The notes beneath the pieces were generated by a model. The model did not search any database. It saw nothing but the letters and a program-made list of their open reading frames with translations, and was not told where the DNA came from. From Deltaproteobacteria bacterium RIFOXYA12_FULL_61_11 (lineage in GTDB: Bacteria; Bdellovibrionota_F; JAHFAK01; YA12-FULL-61-11): 10,534 bases of DNA. The stretch spans positions 1 to 10,534 of the forward strand of contig MGSU01000128.1 in assembly GCA_001799195.1 (NCBI GenBank). Direction: 5' to 3'. Both the position numbers and the translations under genes were made by a program. Shown here piece by piece: positions 2,568 through 10,534 of this stretch; position 1 is the stretch's first letter; every line of letters begins with the position of its first letter.

Positions 2568-3887
2568 TCAGGATAGTTCCTCCACCGTTTCCCGGGCCTC
2601 GATGCCCAGTCCTGCCAGTTCGTCCAAAATGGGACCGTAGAGTTGCGGGTGAATCGGGATCTGGGCTCCGCGCAGCTCGAGCCGACCTTCCAGGAGGAGA
2701 CGCAAGGCAATGGCCGCGGGTAGGGCGACGGTACGGGCCATGGCTCGATGGCCGCGGCGTTGACCGGTCTCGCAGAGAGTCGAAGTGATGCGTTGCCGTG
2801 CTCCAGACGGGTAGCGTACCACGAAGATGTGTTGCAAGATGATGAGATCCTGTTCGTTCCTGCCGTAGGCCAACTTCTGCTCCATCAGGTTGCTGAGCAG
2901 GTCGAGGGGGGAGGAGCAATCCTTCGGACCTTCGTCCTCGAAGAGACCGAGCCATACGAGGCGTTGGAGGGCGTCGCTGGTGGGGGACAACCCTGTCCTG
3001 GCCGCGACTTCGGCCACGGGATTGGCCTGGGTCAAACCCGCGATCAGGCGTACGATGTCCCGGGGGGATTTTCCGGCCAAGCGTTCGTCCGGTTTCTCGT
3101 CCAGCAGACCGAGGGCCACGAGGACCTCCCAGGTCTGACACCAACCGAGGTTGCGCAAGGTTCCCCGTTTGAAGGTCCGCACGCCATGCAACCCATAGGT
3201 GTCGAGATAGGGGAGGGAATCGCGGTTCGGGTAGACCTCGAAGTCACCTAGGCCGGCGACCGTCCGTCGCTCGACGTCCTCGAATATCTTTCCCGGGGGA
3301 ATTTCCACCACCTCGCCGTCGCGGAGGTAGCGGGCGCCGTTGCGTCCGGCGAGGGCGACCCCCCGGGGACTCCACGACACTTTGTAGCCGAAGGGATTGG
3401 TATTGCTCTGGGGAGACGGCAATCCTCCGCAATCGGAGAGGAATTCCAGCACTTCACCGCCCTGGGCGCGGACCCGGTCGAGGATGCGCATGGCGGTCAT
3501 GTGGTCCAGGCCTGGGTCCAGCCCGCACTCGTTCAGGAAGAGGAGGTCGGCTTCACGGGCAGCGCCGTCCAAGCGGCGCATGGTATCGCTGGTATAGGAG
3601 GTGGTCACGAGGTGCTTGCGCCGGGCAAGGCAGACCTCGGCCACCTTGGGGTGGAGGCTCCAGGGGAGTAAGCTGGCGACCGCATCGCTGGCATCGACCA
3701 AACGGGTGAGCCCGGCCCGGTCCTCGACGTCGAAAGCAACGGCTCGACCGTTGGGATACCCTGCCATCAACCTGGCCGCCCGCCGGTAGTTGAGGGAGGC
3801 CACCACGACCTCCAAACCCTGGTCGAGCAGGTAGCGCAGGAGAGGGTCGATGACCAAGCCCGAGCCGAGGACGAGTACTCGCTTCAT
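2568..3887 (-). CDS. Saccharopine dehydrogenase (L-glutamate-forming; SDH half of AASS)
   Basis: Oxidises and hydrolyses saccharopine with NAD+ to L-glutamate and 2-aminoadipate 6-semialdehyde, step two of the saccharopine route of lysine degradation. The 439-aa product lines up with the C-terminal half of human AASS. It has the Rossmann start VLVLGSGLVIDPLLRYL (4-20), SLLPWSLHP (72-80), NECGLDPGLDHM (119-130), CGGLPSPQSNTNP (153-165), YKVSWSPRGV (168-177), YPNRDSLPY (219-227) and RGTLR (241-245), ending with a YGPILDEL motif (417-424). The ATG (3887-3885) overlaps the LKR stop as ATGA, so the two are translationally coupled. The frame stays open upstream to 4334, but that part is antisense-type shadow over the LKR gene. 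The CDS ends 10 nt from the convergent SDR stop. Bacterial yeast-type saccharopine reductases are a different arrangement; the match here is to the animal/plant AASS type. The aldehyde dehydrogenase that should follow in the pathway is not in the window. Confidence 0.93.
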   Translation of the reverse strand: MKRVLVLGSGLVIDPLLRYLLDQGLEVVVASLNYRRAARLMAGYPNGRAVAFDVEDRAGLTRLVDASDAVASLLPWSLHPKVAEVCLARRKHLVTTSYTSDTMRRLDGAAREADLLFLNECGLDPGLDHMTAMRILDRVRAQGGEVLEFLSDCGGLPSPQSNTNPFGYKVSWSPRGVALAGRNGARYLRDGEVVEIPPGKIFEDVERRTVAGLGDFEVYPNRDSLPYLDTYGLHGVRTFKRGTLRNLGWCQTWEVLVALGLLDEKPDERLAGKSPRDIVRLIAGLTQANPVAEVAARTGLSPTSDALQRLVWLGLFEDEGPKDCSSPLDLLSNLMEQKLAYGRNEQDLIILQHIFVVRYPSGARQRITSTLCETGQRRGHRAMARTVALPAAIALRLLLEGRLELRGAQIPIHPQLYGPILDELAGLGIEARETVEELS

Positions 3888-5197
3888 GCTGTCACCGCCT
3901 TGGTGGTTGTTTCGAGGAAGGTGTGCAAATAGGAATAGGTGGGAGTGAGCTTCCCATTGTGGACAATCAGTGCGCGGTGAAGTTCCGGGGGCAGAGCCGC
4001 GGCCTTCAAGCCATTCTGGTCGCGCGCCGCGAGGAGCCCAGGCAGGAACTGCACCAAGAGGTCGCCAAAATGTCTCGAGGCTTCGGCCGGCAACTCGCAG
4101 GGTAAATTGTCCACGGCCATGACCGTGATGCCCTCGGCCGCCACGCCTTCGACATAGTCGTCCGTCGCCGGTCGGTAGGTATAGCAGGGTTGACCTGGAG
4201 TGGTGGCGCCGCGGTTGATCTCTATCGCACCGTCGAGGTCGCAACTGATATCGCCTATTATTCGCAGGGCGTGGGGCGGCAGTCCGGAGCGCAGGTCGGC
4301 TCGGCTGCAGAGCCGAGGAAAACGGGGTTCCCAATAGATGCAGTTGAGGAGCAGGGTGAGGTGCGCATGATACCGCTGGAAAATGCCTCGGTACCGGTCA
4401 GGTGCGGTGAAATATTCCTGCAAATCGAAGGTTTTGCCCGGATTGAGCGGTTCTGCCAGGTGACGTTCCTGGAACACGACCTTGTAGAGGCGATCCGTGG
4501 CCGTGACGCGACCTCCGAGGAGCAGTTCCTCGGGTTCGAGGGTTTCGACCGGCAAGAGCTCGAGGAGCTCTTGGACCCCGTTCGAGACTTGACCGTAACC
4601 GGTGATGCCGCAGACCACGGGGTAGGGAAAACCCACGGCCGCAATCCGCCGGGAGGTTTCGTCGAGGGCCTGGTGGAGTTCGCCAAGGTCTCGGTAGGTC
4701 ATCGGCTGGCGTAAGGCTGCCAAAGGGTTGCGCAGACCCTCGAGGTCGAGCTTTCGGGAGAAGGCCACCAAGGTCTCGACCAACCCAGCCTGCCCCGCGA
4801 AGCGGCCGAAGGCAATCAGCCGTTTTCCGGTCGCATCGACGATGCGTTCGTAGTCGAGGAGGTCGCAACCGAGGTCGAGTAACCTGCGTAGCATCGGCAG
4901 GTTGTAAAGCTGACCTTTCACCACATGAGCGAAATAGAGATAGGTGGTCTTGGGAGCGAGCAATGGGATCGGGACTTCCTTGACCGCTACAATGACCGGG
5001 CAACCGTCGAGGGTAGCGACCACCTCTGCTCCTGCAGAGGCATAGGCGTGGTCCGGGAAGACTCGCTGGGAGGAGGTCTGCACCCGTACCGTCGCACCGT
5101 GCTCACCTATGAGTTGGCCGATGTGCTCAGGTGCGAGGGGAACCCGACGCTCCCACTCGTTGCGATCCTCGCGACGAACTCCGAGACGAACGGTCAT
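3884..5197 (-). CDS. Lysine-ketoglutarate reductase (saccharopine dehydrogenase, NADP+, L-lysine-forming; LKR half of AASS)
   Basis: Condenses L-lysine and 2-oxoglutarate with NADPH to saccharopine, the first step of the saccharopine pathway, in the cytoplasm. The 437-aa product follows the N-terminal half of human AASS. An AlaDh/PNT-like N-terminal domain shows VRREDRNEWERRVPLAP (7-23), VKEVP (72-76), YFAHVVKGQ (88-96), LLDYERIVD (113-121) and AFGRFAGQAGLV (129-140). The nucleotide-binding domain has GITGYGQVSNG (197-207), followed by CIYWEPRFPRL (286-296), GDISCDLDGAIE (315-326) and AVDNLPCELP (361-370). ATG 5197-5195 is chosen because GGGAGG (5209-5204, minus strand) lies 6 nt upstream and homology begins right there. 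Upstream in-frame starts (to 5374) add a non-homologous, low-quality extension. The gene ends in an ATGA overlap with SDH. The two activities, fused in one polypeptide in animals and plants, are separate but coupled here. A candidate promoter with an inverted repeat lies upstream. Confidence 0.93.
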   Translation of the reverse strand: MTVRLGVRREDRNEWERRVPLAPEHIGQLIGEHGATVRVQTSSQRVFPDHAYASAGAEVVATLDGCPVIVAVKEVPIPLLAPKTTYLYFAHVVKGQLYNLPMLRRLLDLGCDLLDYERIVDATGKRLIAFGRFAGQAGLVETLVAFSRKLDLEGLRNPLAALRQPMTYRDLGELHQALDETSRRIAAVGFPYPVVCGITGYGQVSNGVQELLELLPVETLEPEELLLGGRVTATDRLYKVVFQERHLAEPLNPGKTFDLQEYFTAPDRYRGIFQRYHAHLTLLLNCIYWEPRFPRLCSRADLRSGLPPHALRIIGDISCDLDGAIEINRGATTPGQPCYTYRPATDDYVEGVAAEGITVMAVDNLPCELPAEASRHFGDLLVQFLPGLLAARDQNGLKAAALPPELHRALIVHNGKLTPTYSYLHTFLETTTKAVTA

Positions 5198-5203
5198 GGC
5201 CTG

Positions 5204-5209
5204 CCTCCC
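5204..5209 (-). promoter_or_regulatory. Ribosome-binding site fixing the LKR start
   Basis: On the minus strand this reads GGGAGG, 6 nt before ATG 5197-5195. It decides between that ATG and several upstream in-frame starts, none of which has a comparable site or AASS-like residues after it. Confidence 0.7.
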
Positions 5210-5267
5210 GAGGTGCGTGGAGCTCATCTCCGGCGCGGCCTCCACAACCCGCTCCAACGGAGCCACC

Positions 5268-5306
5268 ATTATCCTCTTTCCCATCCGAAGGCAAGGGAAT
5301 CCTTGC
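5268..5306 (-). promoter_or_regulatory. Candidate LKR-SDH promoter with overlapping inverted repeat
   Basis: On the minus strand a GATAAT hexamer (5273-5268, five of six matches to TATAAT) lies about 70 nt before the LKR ATG. A TTGCCT (5294-5289) sits 15 nt upstream of it, a short but usable spacing. The region also holds a perfect 6-4-6 inverted repeat, GCAAGG-GAAT-CCTTGC (5291-5306), which overlaps the -35 position. That is where a repressor or activator dimer would bind, so amino-acid-responsive control is a reasonable guess. No regulator gene is in the window. The repeat is seen directly; the promoter and operator roles are inferred. Confidence 0.35.
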
Positions 5307-5343
5307 AATTTATTCTGTGAACCGCCGACCCTTACGTCCTGTC

Positions 5344-5393
5344 CCGAACTATCTCGAGAAAGGTGAGGTGGCACCAGGTGCTGTACCGAACTA
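5344..5393. repeat. Short direct and inverted repeats in the divergent intergenic region
   Basis: CCGAACTA occurs at 5344-5351 and again at 5386-5393. Between the copies lies a GCACC-A-GGTGC inverted repeat (5371-5381), preceded by GGTG. These could be regulatory protein sites in the 370-bp region (5198-5567) between the divergent LKR and Cys-rich lipoprotein genes. The words are short and chance is not excluded. I see no gene, tRNA or convincing intrinsic terminator in this region. Confidence 0.25.
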
Positions 5394-5567: not shown

Positions 5568-6788
5568 ATGCGATTCTGGCGACTCGTTCTTTTCTTTTCC
5601 CTCTTGACGGCTTGTGGGTTGACCAGCGAGGAACCAGCCACGAATCGCGCGGCTGCTGCCAATCAAAACCTCCCAACCGATCCGTCCGTCTCGTCGAACC
5701 CGCAACAATCCGCCACGGGGTTAGAGGTCCCAGTCCGGCCACCTTTGGTCCAGGTTGATCCAAGCGAAAAGTCACCGGGGCAAGATCCCTTCGAGGACGG
5801 GCACCAGGTCGAGCCGACCGACGACCCCGTCCAGATCGGTGGAACTCCCTGCCCTGCCGGACTGTCCTGTGCTGCCTCGACCAGTCTGACCGGAGCCACC
5901 CTGCGTTGCACCAATACTGTTGGCATCGAACAATCGTGTTGCCCTCTGGGCTCAGAGATCAACGATTCCGGCACTGAGTGCGTCATCCCCACCGACGACC
6001 CTGTGGTCGAACCCCAACCCTGCCCCGCGGGCAGGACGTGTGTCTCCGGGACTCCGCCAACGGGTTACGAACTCTCGTGCCAGGACAACGCCGTCCAGAA
6101 GTACTGCTGTCCGAGCGGCGAGATCCTCGATACAGCCGAGACGGCCTGCGTCCTGCCGACACCCGAACCCGAGCAACTCTCGCCGTGTCCTACCTCGGCA
6201 TACTGCACCGACACGGTGATGGTGACCGGTTCCTTCGCTTGTGCCGATGACGACGGGGACCGTCGTTCGTGTTGCCCGTCCGACCGGGTCTTGAATGCCG
6301 ACCGCAGCGCCTGCGTCTTCCCTAACACCGTTTCGACCTGCGCGCGCGGCCTTGCCTGCGGACATGACGAGGCCCCAACCGGCTGGAAAACCTATTGCAG
6401 CTCGACCGGGAATCCCCTCTATACGTGGTACTGCTGCAGTTCGGATTCGGTGCTCGACGAGAGCGGGAAAGCCTGTCGGCTGAAACCCACGTGCCAGGAG
6501 GGAGCATACTGCAGCGACGCCATGGACGTGGGCAACTCCATCGCTTGCCGCACCACCAGCGGGCAATCGAAGTCCTGCTGCCCTCTCGATAAAGTCTTCA
6601 ATGCCGCCCAGACCTCATGCATCTTCCCCGACCTCCCGATGTGTGGCAGCGGGTTGTCGTGCAGCCACTACGCTATTCCGACCGGGTACGAGGTCTATTG
6701 CTCGGCGAACGGCAATCCCCTCTATACCTGGTACTGTTGTGCCGCCGGTAAGACCTACAACAGTGCTGCCAATCAGTGTCAGCCCTGA
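5568..6788 (+). CDS. Lipoprotein with six copies of an unrecognised six-cysteine module
   Basis: Predicted exported, lipid-anchored protein of 406 aa. The N-terminus has a short signal peptide with lipobox LTAC, giving acylated Cys16. Residues 17-90 form a Pro/Asp/Glu/Gln-rich linker. Six modules follow, with Cys at 95/101/114/124/125/138, 152/158/171/180/181/194, 207/213/225/235/236/249, 258/264/277/289/290/303, 309/315/327/337/338/351 and 359/365/378/390/391/404. The pattern is C-x5-C-x(11-12)-C-x(8-11)-CC-x12-C. All 36 module Cys are conserved, which implies three disulfides per module and an extracytoplasmic location. Modules 4 and 6 share GNPLYTWYCC. PTDDPV linkers precede modules 1 and 2. 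The ATG at 5568 has GAGG (5556-5559) 8 nt upstream and places the lipobox correctly. I do not recognise the module; it is not the DUF4215-type myxobacterial Cys repeat. A structural, adhesive or binding role on the cell surface is a guess. The nearest downstream gene encodes a thioredoxin-like protein after 362 nt. Confidence 0.87.
   Translation: MRFWRLVLFFSLLTACGLTSEEPATNRAAAANQNLPTDPSVSSNPQQSATGLEVPVRPPLVQVDPSEKSPGQDPFEDGHQVEPTDDPVQIGGTPCPAGLSCAASTSLTGATLRCTNTVGIEQSCCPLGSEINDSGTECVIPTDDPVVEPQPCPAGRTCVSGTPPTGYELSCQDNAVQKYCCPSGEILDTAETACVLPTPEPEQLSPCPTSAYCTDTVMVTGSFACADDDGDRRSCCPSDRVLNADRSACVFPNTVSTCARGLACGHDEAPTGWKTYCSSTGNPLYTWYCCSSDSVLDESGKACRLKPTCQEGAYCSDAMDVGNSIACRTTSGQSKSCCPLDKVFNAAQTSCIFPDLPMCGSGLSCSHYAIPTGYEVYCSANGNPLYTWYCCAAGKTYNSAANQCQP
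5850..6779 (+). repeat. Six-module Cys-rich repeat array (about 150 bp per module)
   Basis: Six in-frame repeats of about 44-46 residues, with short linkers. Modules 3-4 (6186-6476) and 5-6 (6492-6779) match as a pair. They share intra-module spacings (11/9 for modules 3 and 5, 12/11 for modules 4 and 6). DNA words are shared at an offset of about 303 bp, such as AATCCCCTCTATAC at 6411-6424 and 6714-6727. This indicates a two-module duplication after older single-module duplications. Confidence 0.85.
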
Positions 6789-7150
6789 ACCGGCTCAGTC
6801 CATGACCGCACGTCCTTCTCGGCTGAAAACCCACGTTGGACGTCAATCCGCCGAATCGCTTATCCGAATGCCAGTGATCTGTTGTGAGTAATATTTTGTC
6901 TTTACAAGTATTTTCGCACACGTACTCCTGGCCCGCATGGCCGAGCTGGATCCCCGCGCGGCAAGCGTATTCGTGGCGGGGATGACGAAGTGGGGGCTTC
7001 TCCTGGTGCATGGGAGGCGTTTTGGGGAACGGAAGTCAAACATTAGGAGATACCGCCTTACCAGGAAACGTGGTCCACGATTCCCCTTGCTCACCTCCGG
7101 TCACGTCTGCAACAATGCGCCACCGATCGGAACCAGAGCCCAACCTCGTG
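6789..7150. other. 362-bp intergenic region between lipoprotein and thioredoxin-like genes
   Basis: No credible gene is seen. The region contains an AT-rich stretch (about 6882-6916), a REP-like palindrome (6946-6987), a small GGCC-N5-GGCC hairpin (6930-6942) and a CGTGG-T-CCACG inverted repeat (7069-7079). No clear -35/-10 pair or U-tract terminator was found, although the operon starting at 7151 must be transcribed from somewhere here. Short open frames running through it lack a ribosome-binding site and any family likeness. Confidence 0.6.
6946..6987. repeat. REP-like palindromic unit
   Basis: CTGG followed by ATCCCCGC (6950-6957), an 18-nt centre, GCGGGGAT (6976-6983) and GACG. The arms are a perfect 8-bp inverted repeat. 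The outline CTGGAT(C)CCCGC...GCGGG(G)ATGACG matches the widespread bacterial extragenic palindrome that, when mistranslated, gives HSRxxGNP-like peptides. The location in a long intergenic gap fits. It could be a dispersed REP/MITE, or it could act as a transcript-stabilising or terminating hairpin after the lipoprotein gene. Only one copy is visible in the window, so dispersal is not shown. Confidence 0.5.
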
Positions 7151-7702
7151 ATGGACCGCTCTCTCGCCCTCAAGGCCGCCTCGCTTTTCCTGCTTGGTAT
7201 GCTGCTTTGCTCACCGGCCATGGCCGCGGAACCCAAGGCGGCCCCGCCTTTCTCGCTGTGGACCCTCGATCGCCGGCTCCACACCCTGTCCTCGCTGCTC
7301 GAGGGTAAACGGTTCGTCGTGCTGAGCTTCTTCGCCACCTGGTGCGCGCCGTGCCGGGCCGAGCTGCCGCTGCTGTCCAAGGTGCACGAGCGGTTTTCAG
7401 GGCAGGGGGTCGAAGTGGTGCTGCTGGCCGTGGACGAAGACCGCGCCAAGCTCGAGGCCTTTCTCAAGGAACACCCCTTGCCGCTGCTGGTGCTGTCCGA
7501 CCCCTATGCCGTGGCGGCCAAGGCCTACGGTCTGGTCGAGAACGGCCTGGTCCGGGTGCCCAGGACCTTTGTCCTCGACGCCGCCGGTCGGCAGGTCGCT
7601 TCCTTCGAGGCCTCGGCCGAGCTGGACCAGAAGCTCGGCGCCCTCCTCGCCCCCAAGCCGGAGCCCACGGCCCGCTCCAAGAAGAAAGGAAACAAGAGAT
7701 GA
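7151..7702 (+). CDS. Periplasmic TlpA/ResA-like thioredoxin-fold protein
   Basis: Exported thiol-disulfide oxidoreductase, 183 aa. A signal peptide (n-region MDRSLALK, hydrophobic 9-23) ends at SPAMA-A near residue 25. C20 in the hydrophobic core does not sit in a good lipobox, so the protein is probably soluble. The thioredoxin fold shows PPFSLWTLD (32-40), FFATWCAPC with the redox pair Cys65/Cys68, and the cis-Pro loop VPRTFVLD with Pro137. This is the AhpC/TSA-Redoxin/TlpA pattern. The C-terminus is a Pro-rich linker plus a basic KKKGNKR tail whose codons also carry the next gene's ribosome-binding site. The ATG at 7151 is chosen for its signal peptide. GTG 7148 and ATG 7115 are alternatives, and none has a strong Shine-Dalgarno. 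The stop overlaps the next start as ATGA, so it is coupled to the PEGA protein. Likely work is reducing or isomerising Cys pairs in exported partners; cytochrome c maturation is the family's common role, but no such genes are here. Confidence 0.88.
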   Translation: MDRSLALKAASLFLLGMLLCSPAMAAEPKAAPPFSLWTLDRRLHTLSSLLEGKRFVVLSFFATWCAPCRAELPLLSKVHERFSGQGVEVVLLAVDEDRAKLEAFLKEHPLPLLVLSDPYAVAAKAYGLVENGLVRVPRTFVLDAAGRQVASFEASAELDQKLGALLAPKPEPTARSKKKGNKR

Positions 7703-9687
7703 GAAGCGTGGTCTGTTCGATGGTGCTGTGGGGCCTGCTTCTCGGCGGCGAGGCGCCCGCCCAACAGCGCAAGCCCTTCGTGGCCGTGGCCGACCTGCAC
7801 CTCAGCGGCGCTCTGGGCCAGGACCAGGTCCGCCTGCTGACCGACGTGCTGCGCAACACCTTGATCGAACTCGATCACTTCGTCATGCTCGACCGCTCGA
7901 ACATGGACAAGATCTTCGCCGAGCAAAAGTTCCTGCTCAGCGGGGCCTGCGACGTGGCGAGCTGCCAGACCAGGATCGGCCAACTTCTCGGCGTGGAACG
8001 CATCGTCACCGGCACGATCGGCAAGGTCGGCAGCACCTATTCGCTGGTCATCCAGCTCACCAACGTCTCCACCGGTGAGATCGAGCGCACGGCCGAGGAG
8101 TCCTACCGCGGCGAAAGCGACGGCTTGATCGCCGTGGTCAAGCAACAGGCCTACAAGCTGTGCGGGCTGCCCGTGCCGTTGGAGCTGGTGCTGGGCACGG
8201 TCGCGACCTCGGCCACGGGCGACCTGTACGTGAACTCAGAGCCGCAGGGCGCCTCGGTTTACGTGGACGGCCGTTCGGTCAAGGGCACGACCCCGCTGAT
8301 GATCGAACAGCTCCCGGTCGGCGCCCACCAGCTCAGGCTGCTCTTGGGCGAGCTGACCGGCACCTTGGAGGTCGAAGTACGCAAGGACAGCCTGGAAAAG
8401 CTGAACCTCCCTTTGGCCAAAGAAAAGCTGCAGCTCCGCATCATCACCAATCCGCCCGACGCCGAGGTCTACTCCGCGGACAAGCTGCTCGGCCGTTCGC
8501 CGCTGACCCTCAGCTATGACCAGCCGGGACTGTACACCCTGCGGGTGCTCAAGGAAGGCTTTGCCGAGGTCGTCCACGCCGGCGAGCTGACCAGACTCAA
8601 GACTGAGACCGTGCGTCTGACCCTGAAACCCGGCCTCGCCTTCGAGGTGCAGTCTACACCCCCAGGCGCCGCGGTGCACCTCGACGGCCAGCAGCGGGGC
8701 CACACCCCCTGGCGCGCGGCCGTGACCGCGGGCAAGCACGAATTCGTCCTCACCCTCGAGGGTTATGAAATCCTGACCAAGGAAGTCGAGGTGAGCAAGC
8801 CCGAGACCCTGGCCCTGACCTTGACCCCTATTCCGGCCTTTTTAAGCGTTCGCTGCCTGCCCGAGGGGACCATCCTGCTCGACGGGAAAGAGCTCGGCCT
8901 GGTCGACAGGTTCGAGACCCAGGTCGGCACGCACGAGCTGACCTGCCGCCAGGCCACCTGGCTGGAAAAGAAACAGACCGTGGAGCTCACCCGCGGGCAA
9001 CATTTCGAGCTGACCCTGCAGCTCGCCCCCGAACCGGCCCAGGTGACCCTGACCGGGCTGCCCGAAGAGGCCCGCTTGCTGGTGGATGGAGGCCAACTCG
9101 AAGAAGGGGACGTTTTGAGAGACGGTTCCCCCACGGAAGGAAGCGGCGCTGGGCCCAGGCGCCTCGGCAAGACCCTCTTCCTCGCACCCGGCAAGCATTG
9201 TATCGAAGTCCACAGCCTGCGCAACGAACCCGCGCGCCGCGAGCTGGTGCTGCAACGCGCCGAACGGCAGGTTTGGGAGGTGCAGTACACGCTCAAACCC
9301 GTCTTCGCCGAATACGAACGCAAGTACGAACGCAAGAAGTGCCATGGCCTCTGGAGCGCTGGGGTCGGCATCAGTCTCGTGATACTCAGTGCAACCCCCT
9401 TGCACCTGGCCTGGAAAGATATCGAGGCCAGAAAAGACCTGGTCGAGCGCGGCGAGAACCTGGTCGGCAGCCAAAGCGAGCTGGACGACCTGCGCGGCCA
9501 GGCCAATGCCAAGGCCTCGTCGGCCCTCTGGAAGGCCGCGACCGGCTTCACCCTGCTCGGCGCCGGGATGTTGGCCCTGGGCTACATGACCTACAACTAC
9601 ACCACGCTGCCCATACTCCCCACGGCCACCCTGGCCCTTTGGCTGGACGGCCAGACCCCCGGGGCCGTGCTTGCGGTGAGGTACTGA
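7699..9687 (+). CDS. CsgG/FlgO-like N-terminal domain plus PEGA-repeat envelope protein with two C-terminal membrane segments
   Basis: Exported 662-aa protein. The signal peptide ends at about APA-Q (residue 21). Residues about 26-160 resemble the CsgG/FlgO-like alpha/beta domain often fused to PEGA repeats (VAVADL, LIELDHFVMLDRSNMDKI, IGQLLGVERIVTGTIGKVGSTYSL). This domain has a Cys84/Cys89 pair in GACDVASC. PEGA-type beta modules follow at about 175-237, 244-309 and 313-376, with typical P(P/Q)GA-x-V-x-(V/L)DG and G-x-TP words. Two more divergent ones lie at about 380-442 and 447-530. Hydrophobic helices at about 552-571 and 613-632 flank a charged 40-residue segment. Start ATG 7699 overlaps the thioredoxin stop (ATGA) and has AAAGGA (7685-7690) 8 nt upstream; the frame open back to 7342 is a shadow of the thioredoxin gene. 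The stop is 2 nt before the next lipoprotein ATG. An envelope scaffold or surface-binding role is inferred from PEGA proteins in general; the specific partner is unknown. Confidence 0.87.
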   Translation: MRSVVCSMVLWGLLLGGEAPAQQRKPFVAVADLHLSGALGQDQVRLLTDVLRNTLIELDHFVMLDRSNMDKIFAEQKFLLSGACDVASCQTRIGQLLGVERIVTGTIGKVGSTYSLVIQLTNVSTGEIERTAEESYRGESDGLIAVVKQQAYKLCGLPVPLELVLGTVATSATGDLYVNSEPQGASVYVDGRSVKGTTPLMIEQLPVGAHQLRLLLGELTGTLEVEVRKDSLEKLNLPLAKEKLQLRIITNPPDAEVYSADKLLGRSPLTLSYDQPGLYTLRVLKEGFAEVVHAGELTRLKTETVRLTLKPGLAFEVQSTPPGAAVHLDGQQRGHTPWRAAVTAGKHEFVLTLEGYEILTKEVEVSKPETLALTLTPIPAFLSVRCLPEGTILLDGKELGLVDRFETQVGTHELTCRQATWLEKKQTVELTRGQHFELTLQLAPEPAQVTLTGLPEEARLLVDGGQLEEGDVLRDGSPTEGSGAGPRRLGKTLFLAPGKHCIEVHSLRNEPARRELVLQRAERQVWEVQYTLKPVFAEYERKYERKKCHGLWSAGVGISLVILSATPLHLAWKDIEARKDLVERGENLVGSQSELDDLRGQANAKASSALWKAATGFTLLGAGMLALGYMTYNYTTLPILPTATLALWLDGQTPGAVLAVRY

Positions 9688-9689
9688 CC

Positions 9690-10534
9690 ATGAAACCGAG
9701 CTTCTTGGCCCTGTGCCTGCTCCTTACCGCCTGTTCCTCCTTCCAGCAACTCGACCACCTCAACAACCCGCTGGACGAGCACAACCCCGAAACCAAGGGC
9801 GACCCCTACCAGCTCGTGGTCGAGAATAAAAACAACGGCGTCCAGCTCACCTGGCAGGCCGTGGACCTGCCCGGAGTGGCAGGCTACGCCGTGCTGCGCA
9901 GCGCCGACGGCACAACCTTCGAGAGGATCGGCAGTACCGACGAGACCTCGTTTCTCGACACCGACATCAGTGATGGAGAGAGTTATACCTATCGCATCGC
10001 CGTGGTTGCAATTGGATTCGCCGGTGACCTAGCCGAAGCCCCCTATCTGAGCGGCGGGACAACCGCCCTGCGCGTCATCGAAGACTTGGTCGTGGACTGG
10101 GATGGGGATGGGAAGAGGGACACCGAAGACGAGGATCTCGACGGGGATGGGGTCTCGAACCTCGACGAGGCCGCCCAGGGCAGCGACCCCGAAGACAAGA
10201 CCTCGGTACCATCCGACCTTGATAAGGATGGAAAATACGATTTCCAGGATGATGACCGGGACGGGGACGGGGTCTCGAACACCGACGAGGCCGCTCAGGG
10301 CAGTGACCCGGAAGACAAGACCTCGGTACCATCCGACCTTGATAAGGATGGAAAATACGATTTCCAGGATGACGACCGGGACGGAGACGGGGTCTCGAAC
10401 ACCGACGAGGCCGCTCAGGGCAGTGACCCGGAAGACAAGACCGCTGTACCACCCGACCTCGACAAGGATGGGAAGTACGATTTCCAAGATGACGACCGGG
10501 ACGGAGATGGTCAGACCAACGACTTCGAGGAAGA
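9690..10534 (+). CDS. Lipoprotein with fibronectin type III domain and thrombospondin-3-like Ca-binding repeats (3' end outside window)
   Basis: Predicted surface lipoprotein; 281 residues are visible and the frame is open at the window end. A signal peptide with lipobox LTAC gives acylated Cys15. Residues about 39-128 form a fibronectin type III-like sandwich (VQLTWQAVDLPGVAGYAVLR, FERIGSTDETSFLDT, YTYRIAVVA). From about 136 the sequence is dominated by acidic DxDxDG loops (DWDGDGKRD, DLDGDGVSN, DLDKDGKYD, DRDGDGVSN) typical of thrombospondin type 3 and dockerin-like Ca2+ sites, arranged in 40-residue units. The ATG at 9690 follows GAGG (9678-9681) by 8 nt and comes 2 nt after the PEGA gene stop, so it belongs to the same operon. 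A calcium-stiffened stalk carrying a binding domain near the membrane is the likely architecture. The C-terminal domain, which would tell the function, is not visible. Family-level identity is good; the specific role is unknown. Confidence 0.88.
   Translation, partial: MKPSFLALCLLLTACSSFQQLDHLNNPLDEHNPETKGDPYQLVVENKNNGVQLTWQAVDLPGVAGYAVLRSADGTTFERIGSTDETSFLDTDISDGESYTYRIAVVAIGFAGDLAEAPYLSGGTTALRVIEDLVVDWDGDGKRDTEDEDLDGDGVSNLDEAAQGSDPEDKTSVPSDLDKDGKYDFQDDDRDGDGVSNTDEAAQGSDPEDKTSVPSDLDKDGKYDFQDDDRDGDGVSNTDEAAQGSDPEDKTAVPPDLDKDGKYDFQDDDRDGDGQTNDFEE
10134..10534 (+). repeat. 120-bp in-frame tandem repeat array (three full copies and the start of a fourth)
   Basis: Units run 10134-10253, 10254-10373, 10374-10493 and 10494 onward, each coding 40 residues with two DxDxDG loops, a SNxDEAAQGSDPEDKT stretch and a D(L)DKDGKYDFQDD stretch. 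Comparing the sequence with itself at a 120-nt shift, positions 10191-10322 differ at only 2 sites. The flanking parts differ more, which marks a recent single-unit duplication. The array may continue beyond the window. Confidence 0.92.

Follow-up and report, generated by a model that had tools for sequence, protein, structure and literature searches.

The lipoprotein encoded at positions 5568-6788 (+ strand) of the window, that is, of the whole analysed stretch of 10,534 nucleotides from contig MGSU01000128.1 of Deltaproteobacteria bacterium RIFOXYA12_FULL_61_11, is built from six copies of a module that is an undescribed domain family, ordinary in its general type (a disulfide-rich tandem surface module) and possessing its own Cys framework. 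We consider the chances about even that these are disulfide-stapled surface modules of a new family that act in tandem as a semi-rigid stalk or an adhesin scaffold. In such a structure the exported lipoprotein would be anchored in a membrane by the lipidated Cys16, and a Pro-rich acidic linker of ~78 residues would bear six tandem mini-domains, each of them a beta-hairpin module of ~45 residues with six Cys that would probably form three disulfides with the help of VKOR-DsbA enzymes. Linkers of 5-13 residues that contain Pro connect the modules and would give a semi-rigid array keeping the binding surfaces away from the cell. The same module recurs in other lipoproteins of the host, where further N-terminal domains or flanking repeat domains accompany it, and in Patescibacteria surface proteins.

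The open reading frame specifies 406 amino acids with 37 Cys, as read from the translation, namely the lipobox Cys16 and 36 Cys in the six modules. The signal peptide (5568-5615, + strand; MRFWRLVLFFSLLTAC), called by eye from the translation, has a lipobox, LTAC, that ends in the putatively lipidated Cys at residue 16, as is expected of a lipoprotein. It is followed by a Cys-free linker with a composition dominated by Pro, Ser, Gln and acidic residues (residues 17-94; 5616-5849, + strand), in which 12 Pro fall within residues 17-92. The lipobox and the Pro/acidic linker ahead of the modules, both described in the first-pass annotation, are thus present in the translation. A GAGG motif stands 5' of the ATG at a plausible spacing; scans for promoters and terminators gave no match.

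All the modules lie on the + strand. Module 1 (5850-5981; CPAGLSC...TEC), which matches the family profile with E 6e-17, has spacings of 5/12/9/0/12 residues between successive Cys, and module 2 (6021-6149) of 5/12/8/0/12. Modules 3 (6186-6314) and 5 (6492-6620) both show 5/11/9/0/12, and modules 4 (6339-6476) and 6 (6642-6779) both show 5/12/11/0/12, the last Cys of module 6 sitting two residues before the C-terminus of the protein. The overall spacings are therefore 5/11-12/8-11/0/12, and the translation bears out the earlier claim of six modules of the form C-x5-C-x(11-12)-C-x(8-11)-CC-x12-C accounting for all 36 module Cys. When the module region was shuffled 20,000 times with its composition preserved, a single match appeared in one shuffle and two or more in none, against six in the real protein. 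Non-Cys identity among the modules is mostly 11-40%; the best-matching pairs are modules 3 and 5 (44% identical) and modules 4 and 6 (48% identical), which points to the probable duplication of a unit of two modules, modules 3-4 and 5-6 having the look of an internal duplication.

The assembly to which the window belongs (4.64 Mb in 342 contigs, 87% complete) holds further copies. A profile of 18 modules found 20 complete or near-complete modules in it, including the six of the window, and one fragment, at E < 1e-10; outside the window the first profile accounts for about 14 modules and the fragment, and a wider profile for up to five divergent ones. These modules occupy at least four further loci: contig C93 with two adjacent multi-module lipoproteins (L011:1-3681, - strand), contig C2 with one multi-module lipoprotein (L012:12159-14669), contig C73 with a module fragment (YGASEPQCLSGTIVNWCCPTGKILNSAKTACIDP) in a gene cut by the contig edge, and contig C313 with a lipoprotein whose copies, four or five in number, are divergent and have their last spacing shortened. 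The readable starts of the C93, C2 and C313 proteins consist of a signal sequence and a lipobox (LLGC, LVSC, LSAC, LLNC), and the GC content is alike across the module-bearing contigs (0.61-0.64), which makes mis-binning unlikely. The search for the module in other lipoproteins that had been proposed as a check was successful, with the six Cys kept in the homologues. The domain partners of the modules vary among these paralogues. The C93 lipoproteins have in common a Cys-rich N-terminal region of ~190 residues (CDGL...CxNCxxS...YCDC...GWIGV) without a Pfam match, and in the C2 lipoprotein the modules have on either side sets of repeats of ~50 residues that are rich in Trp and Tyr (LxxxYWRGxxGxxRTVPIVxGxxxWxxAxxWxGP), likewise without a Pfam match; these may represent an unnamed repeat of lectin-like or propeller type.

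Outside the host, a scan of named genomes returned one relative, in the Patescibacteria MAG JAHITH010000027.1. Modules were found in four of 379 sampled Patescibacteria genomes and in six of 88 genomes in the order of one of those four, while the one other genome of the host phylum that was searched was without the module; the small number of matching Patescibacteria and the empty second genome of the host phylum indicate that the distribution is scattered. A homology search of plasmid and phage proteins gave no relevant match, and two scans of viral contigs no confirmed relative. The query of the pattern scan was a five-row alignment (A4) headed by a hand-made consensus, which is not a natural sequence; among the other alignments, A2 has one row padded by three residues (again non-natural) and A5 one mistyped residue (LLC for PLC), and the rows of A1, A6 (33 rows) and A7 were taken from translations.

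The Patescibacteria module proteins all have an N-terminal hydrophobic stretch; linkers rich in Thr and Pro occur in several of them and a putative C-terminal membrane anchor in some. The six Cys are retained in the exported relatives, contrary to the free variation of Cys positions that the first-pass annotation had named as counting against its proposal. One Patescibacterial variant (L035, 7743-8156) has eight Cys, the extra ones standing two residues after C2 and four before C4. Of the open reading frames adjoining this variant, judged by eye, one contains dockerin-like repeats and another is glycoside hydrolase-like. Two proteins of one Patescibacterial genome (L039 and L041) end in a common tail, E-x2-VPGLP-x-VSG-x-P-x-PL, which is perhaps a sorting or anchoring signal, and two others (L037 and L038) have in common a membrane tail, TGF-x2-D-x-LLY-x-GG.

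The modules of the host and of the Patescibacteria are homologous beyond their Cys, and all but one of the tested modules were recognised in each direction. True homology was told apart from a bare Cys pattern by permuting the non-Cys residues with the Cys left in place, 1000 shuffles per module. With a profile made from other proteins the six window modules scored 39.6-50.0 bits, and the best Cys-fixed shuffle 22.7 bits. The host-genome profile gave ten Patescibacteria modules 16.9-42.8 bits, and for each of them none of the 1000 shuffles reached the real score; conversely, a profile made from Patescibacteria alone placed five of the six window modules above all shuffles and module 4 above 996 of 1000. 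The C313 copies were the weakest: of the three tested, one was outscored by 12 of its 1000 shuffles and another by 31. The resulting fingerprint is C-[PG]-x-G-L-x-C-x(4-7)-P-T-G-x(2-5)-C-x(7-11)-[WYF]-C-C-P-x-G-K-V-L-N-x-A-x2-A-C-[VI]-x-P, with an aromatic residue commonly just before the CC pair. The family as a whole keeps constant just the six Cys with their CC pair, the spacings ranging over 4-10, 10-14, 8-12, 0 and 10-12; the invariance of the first and last spacings (5 and 12) that had been claimed holds in the window protein and is lost in the family at large (4-10 and 10-12).

The searches against named families agree with the earlier failure to recognise the pattern as one of them, and their silence together with the exported relatives supports the suggestion that it may be an undescribed bacterial surface domain. 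Neither the whole window protein nor its relatives had a Pfam match above cut-off, NCBIfam (which should include the Cys-rich repeat models of the Myxococcus type) and PHROGs gave no significant match to modules or whole proteins, and the module profile matched no PDB sequence even at E 10. No match of modules or whole proteins to DUF4215, TIGR02232 or TIGR04201 was obtained in Pfam and NCBIfam. Several models scored below their cut-offs: Granulin (PF00396) weakly on 6 of 33 modules, at best 14.2 vs 20.9 bits (E 0.05-1.2), CBM_14 (PF01607) on module 2 only with 14.4 vs 22.1 bits (E 0.042), Lustrin on an individual module (E 0.037) and Metallothionein (PF00131) with 11.8-12.1 vs 23 bits (E 0.12-0.28). 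Run over the whole genome, the granulin model reached a module at best with E 0.34, behind a chance match with E 0.21, and the best matches of the CBM_14 model lay elsewhere with no module among them; neither model singles out these modules. Granulins have 12 Cys and four CC pairs. Our modules carry the granulin-like half-motif CCP-x-G...C, and 32 of the 33 have six Cys and one CC pair, the remaining one having eight Cys. The first-pass annotation, which did not recognise the pattern as DUF4215, EGF or granulin, is thus borne out at the level of profile matches above cut-off, whereas a granulin-like or EGF-like fold is still conceivable structurally.

AlphaFold2 models of module 2 alone (33 sequences; pLDDT 87.3) and of modules 5 and 6 together (16 sequences; pLDDT 88.9) both predict with confidence a small fold in which a beta-hairpin reaches from C3 to C4 and C6 lies at a short strand, the strands flanking C3, C4 and C6. 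All Foldseek matches were insignificant, the best having E 0.79 for the single module and 0.059 for the pair. An EGF-like topology is possible from these models, and it is conceivable, though improbable, that the modules belong to the EGF-like superfamily as remote members in which C4 and C5 are adjacent, serving as ordinary EGF-type spacers. Most of the top Foldseek matches of both models were indeed EGF-like (MSP1-19, factor X, fibrillin and Pfs25; E 0.06 to 10), and the C3-C4 hairpin and the short C5-C6 loop resemble those of EGF, which like our modules has six Cys and is used in tandem, as in the MSP1-19 pair. However, the E-value never fell below 0.05, VIA-align, which listed EGF-type chains alone (the absence of granulin and CBM14 there carrying no excluding weight), gave Z of 2.0-2.8, no family of the Pfam EGF clan matched any of the 33 modules at E up to 10, C4 and C5 are adjacent in 33 of 33 modules where EGF has one residue between them, and the C2-C3 loop is longer than usual. 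The nearest solved structures are EGF-like, though insignificantly so; we make no claim of a new fold for the modelled module, for which a granulin-like or CBM14-like fold may also be conceivable.

The window protein has no attached binding domain, and a stalk of this kind must therefore bind by its modules or need a partner. For this reason the main rival is a lectin-like role, in which each module would itself bind a glycan or a protein, in the manner of the chitin-binding CBM14 or hevein types, and the array would provide avidity; we regard this as the less probable reading, at roughly one chance in four. It would agree with the weak CBM_14 score of module 2, with the CBM14 structures (6so0, 5zjl, 4zce and 5hbf) that Foldseek also listed without significance (6so0 with E 0.9 and TM 0.34), with the loop C-P-x-G-x3-N-x5-C, whose 12 residues between Cys we take to recall CBM14, with the common aromatic residue before the CC pair and with the position of the C2 paralogue's modules between Trp/Tyr-rich repeat sets. 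Yet that score is below the cut-off, the genome-wide CBM_14 search does not select the modules, the aromatic position is occupied by Ser in three of the six window modules and the low non-Cys identity does not point to a single ligand site common to the modules. Much less credible, in our opinion a few chances in a hundred, is that the Cys bind metal or buffer redox state instead of forming structural disulfides. The very weak Metallothionein score would fit this, as would a TlpA-like thioredoxin encoded downstream of the lipoprotein gene (7010-7702), so the module Cys could be redox-handled and not static; the long ORFs listed for the C93 and C2 loci included no such protein. Against it stand the density of six Cys per ~45 residues and the lack of CxC and CxxC motifs within the window modules, the export of the protein in an organism whose genome encodes two VKOR proteins (L049 and L050), each fused to a DsbA-like domain, and the simultaneous gain of two Cys in L035, as expected of an added disulfide. 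VKOR-DsbA is the machinery expected for the disulfides of exported proteins, and the two fusions make disulfides in the exported modules plausible. By analogy with the published Cys-rich surface proteins described below we favour the semi-rigid stapled array on the surface. The reading frame, the lipobox, the six modules, the homology beyond the Cys, the fold model and the VKOR-DsbA genes come from the computation itself, and the three disulfides per module and their pairing, the surface location and the function as a stalk or adhesin are inferred.

Around the lipoprotein gene, the downstream region 7010-10533 (+ strand) is a cluster of envelope genes, for the TlpA-like thioredoxin, for a PEGA/CsgG-like protein and, truncated at the contig end, for a lipoprotein that bears bacterial TSP3 repeats. 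The adjacent genes of an AlaDh/PNT-domain (lysine-ketoglutarate reductase-like) protein and a saccharopine dehydrogenase at 2571-5374 (- strand) suggest the saccharopine route of lysine degradation, and the end of a zinc-dependent (threonine dehydrogenase-like) dehydrogenase followed by a glycine C-acetyltransferase-like enzyme of the class I/II aminotransferase fold (2-1672, + strand) is likely a threonine degradation pair.

The closest published parallel is the Cys-rich stalk of the Myxococcus protein TraA (TIGR04201), which is proposed to present the recognition domain of that protein and to owe its stiffness to disulfides (PMC3325183, PMC12045341); in its repeat three Cys are invariant and two more are marginally conserved (PMC3325183). 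Like TraA and the TIGR02232/DUF4215 proteins, ours is an exported, membrane-anchored bacterial protein with tandem Cys-rich repeats for which a rigid stalk is proposed; its modules differ from the TIGR04201 repeat in having six Cys, and they match no NCBIfam model. Large Cys-rich extracellular proteins with a proposed attachment function have been described in Peribacteria (PMC4736985), CPR bacteria that, in the part of that report considered here, resemble our case in exporting Cys-rich proteins of proposed attachment function, whereas a six-Cys module of this kind is not defined in that part.

The module, present also in distantly related, very small bacteria, the Patescibacteria, is probably an overlooked disulfide-stapled unit of stalks or adhesins. 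More tentatively, and with odds well short of even, it may represent a hitherto undescribed, disulfide-stapled surface-domain family common to a rare candidate phylum and the Patescibacteria that serves as an interchangeable unit of bacterium-bacterium contact structures, such as stalks or adhesins touching hosts or prey. Most of the Cys-rich proteins that uncultured bacteria export lack an annotation, and a named module defined by an HMM would allow annotators to find such proteins. It would also offer a small testable unit for the rigid surface structures of diderm bacteria and Patescibacteria, and would mark lineages with a need for strong extracytoplasmic oxidative folding.
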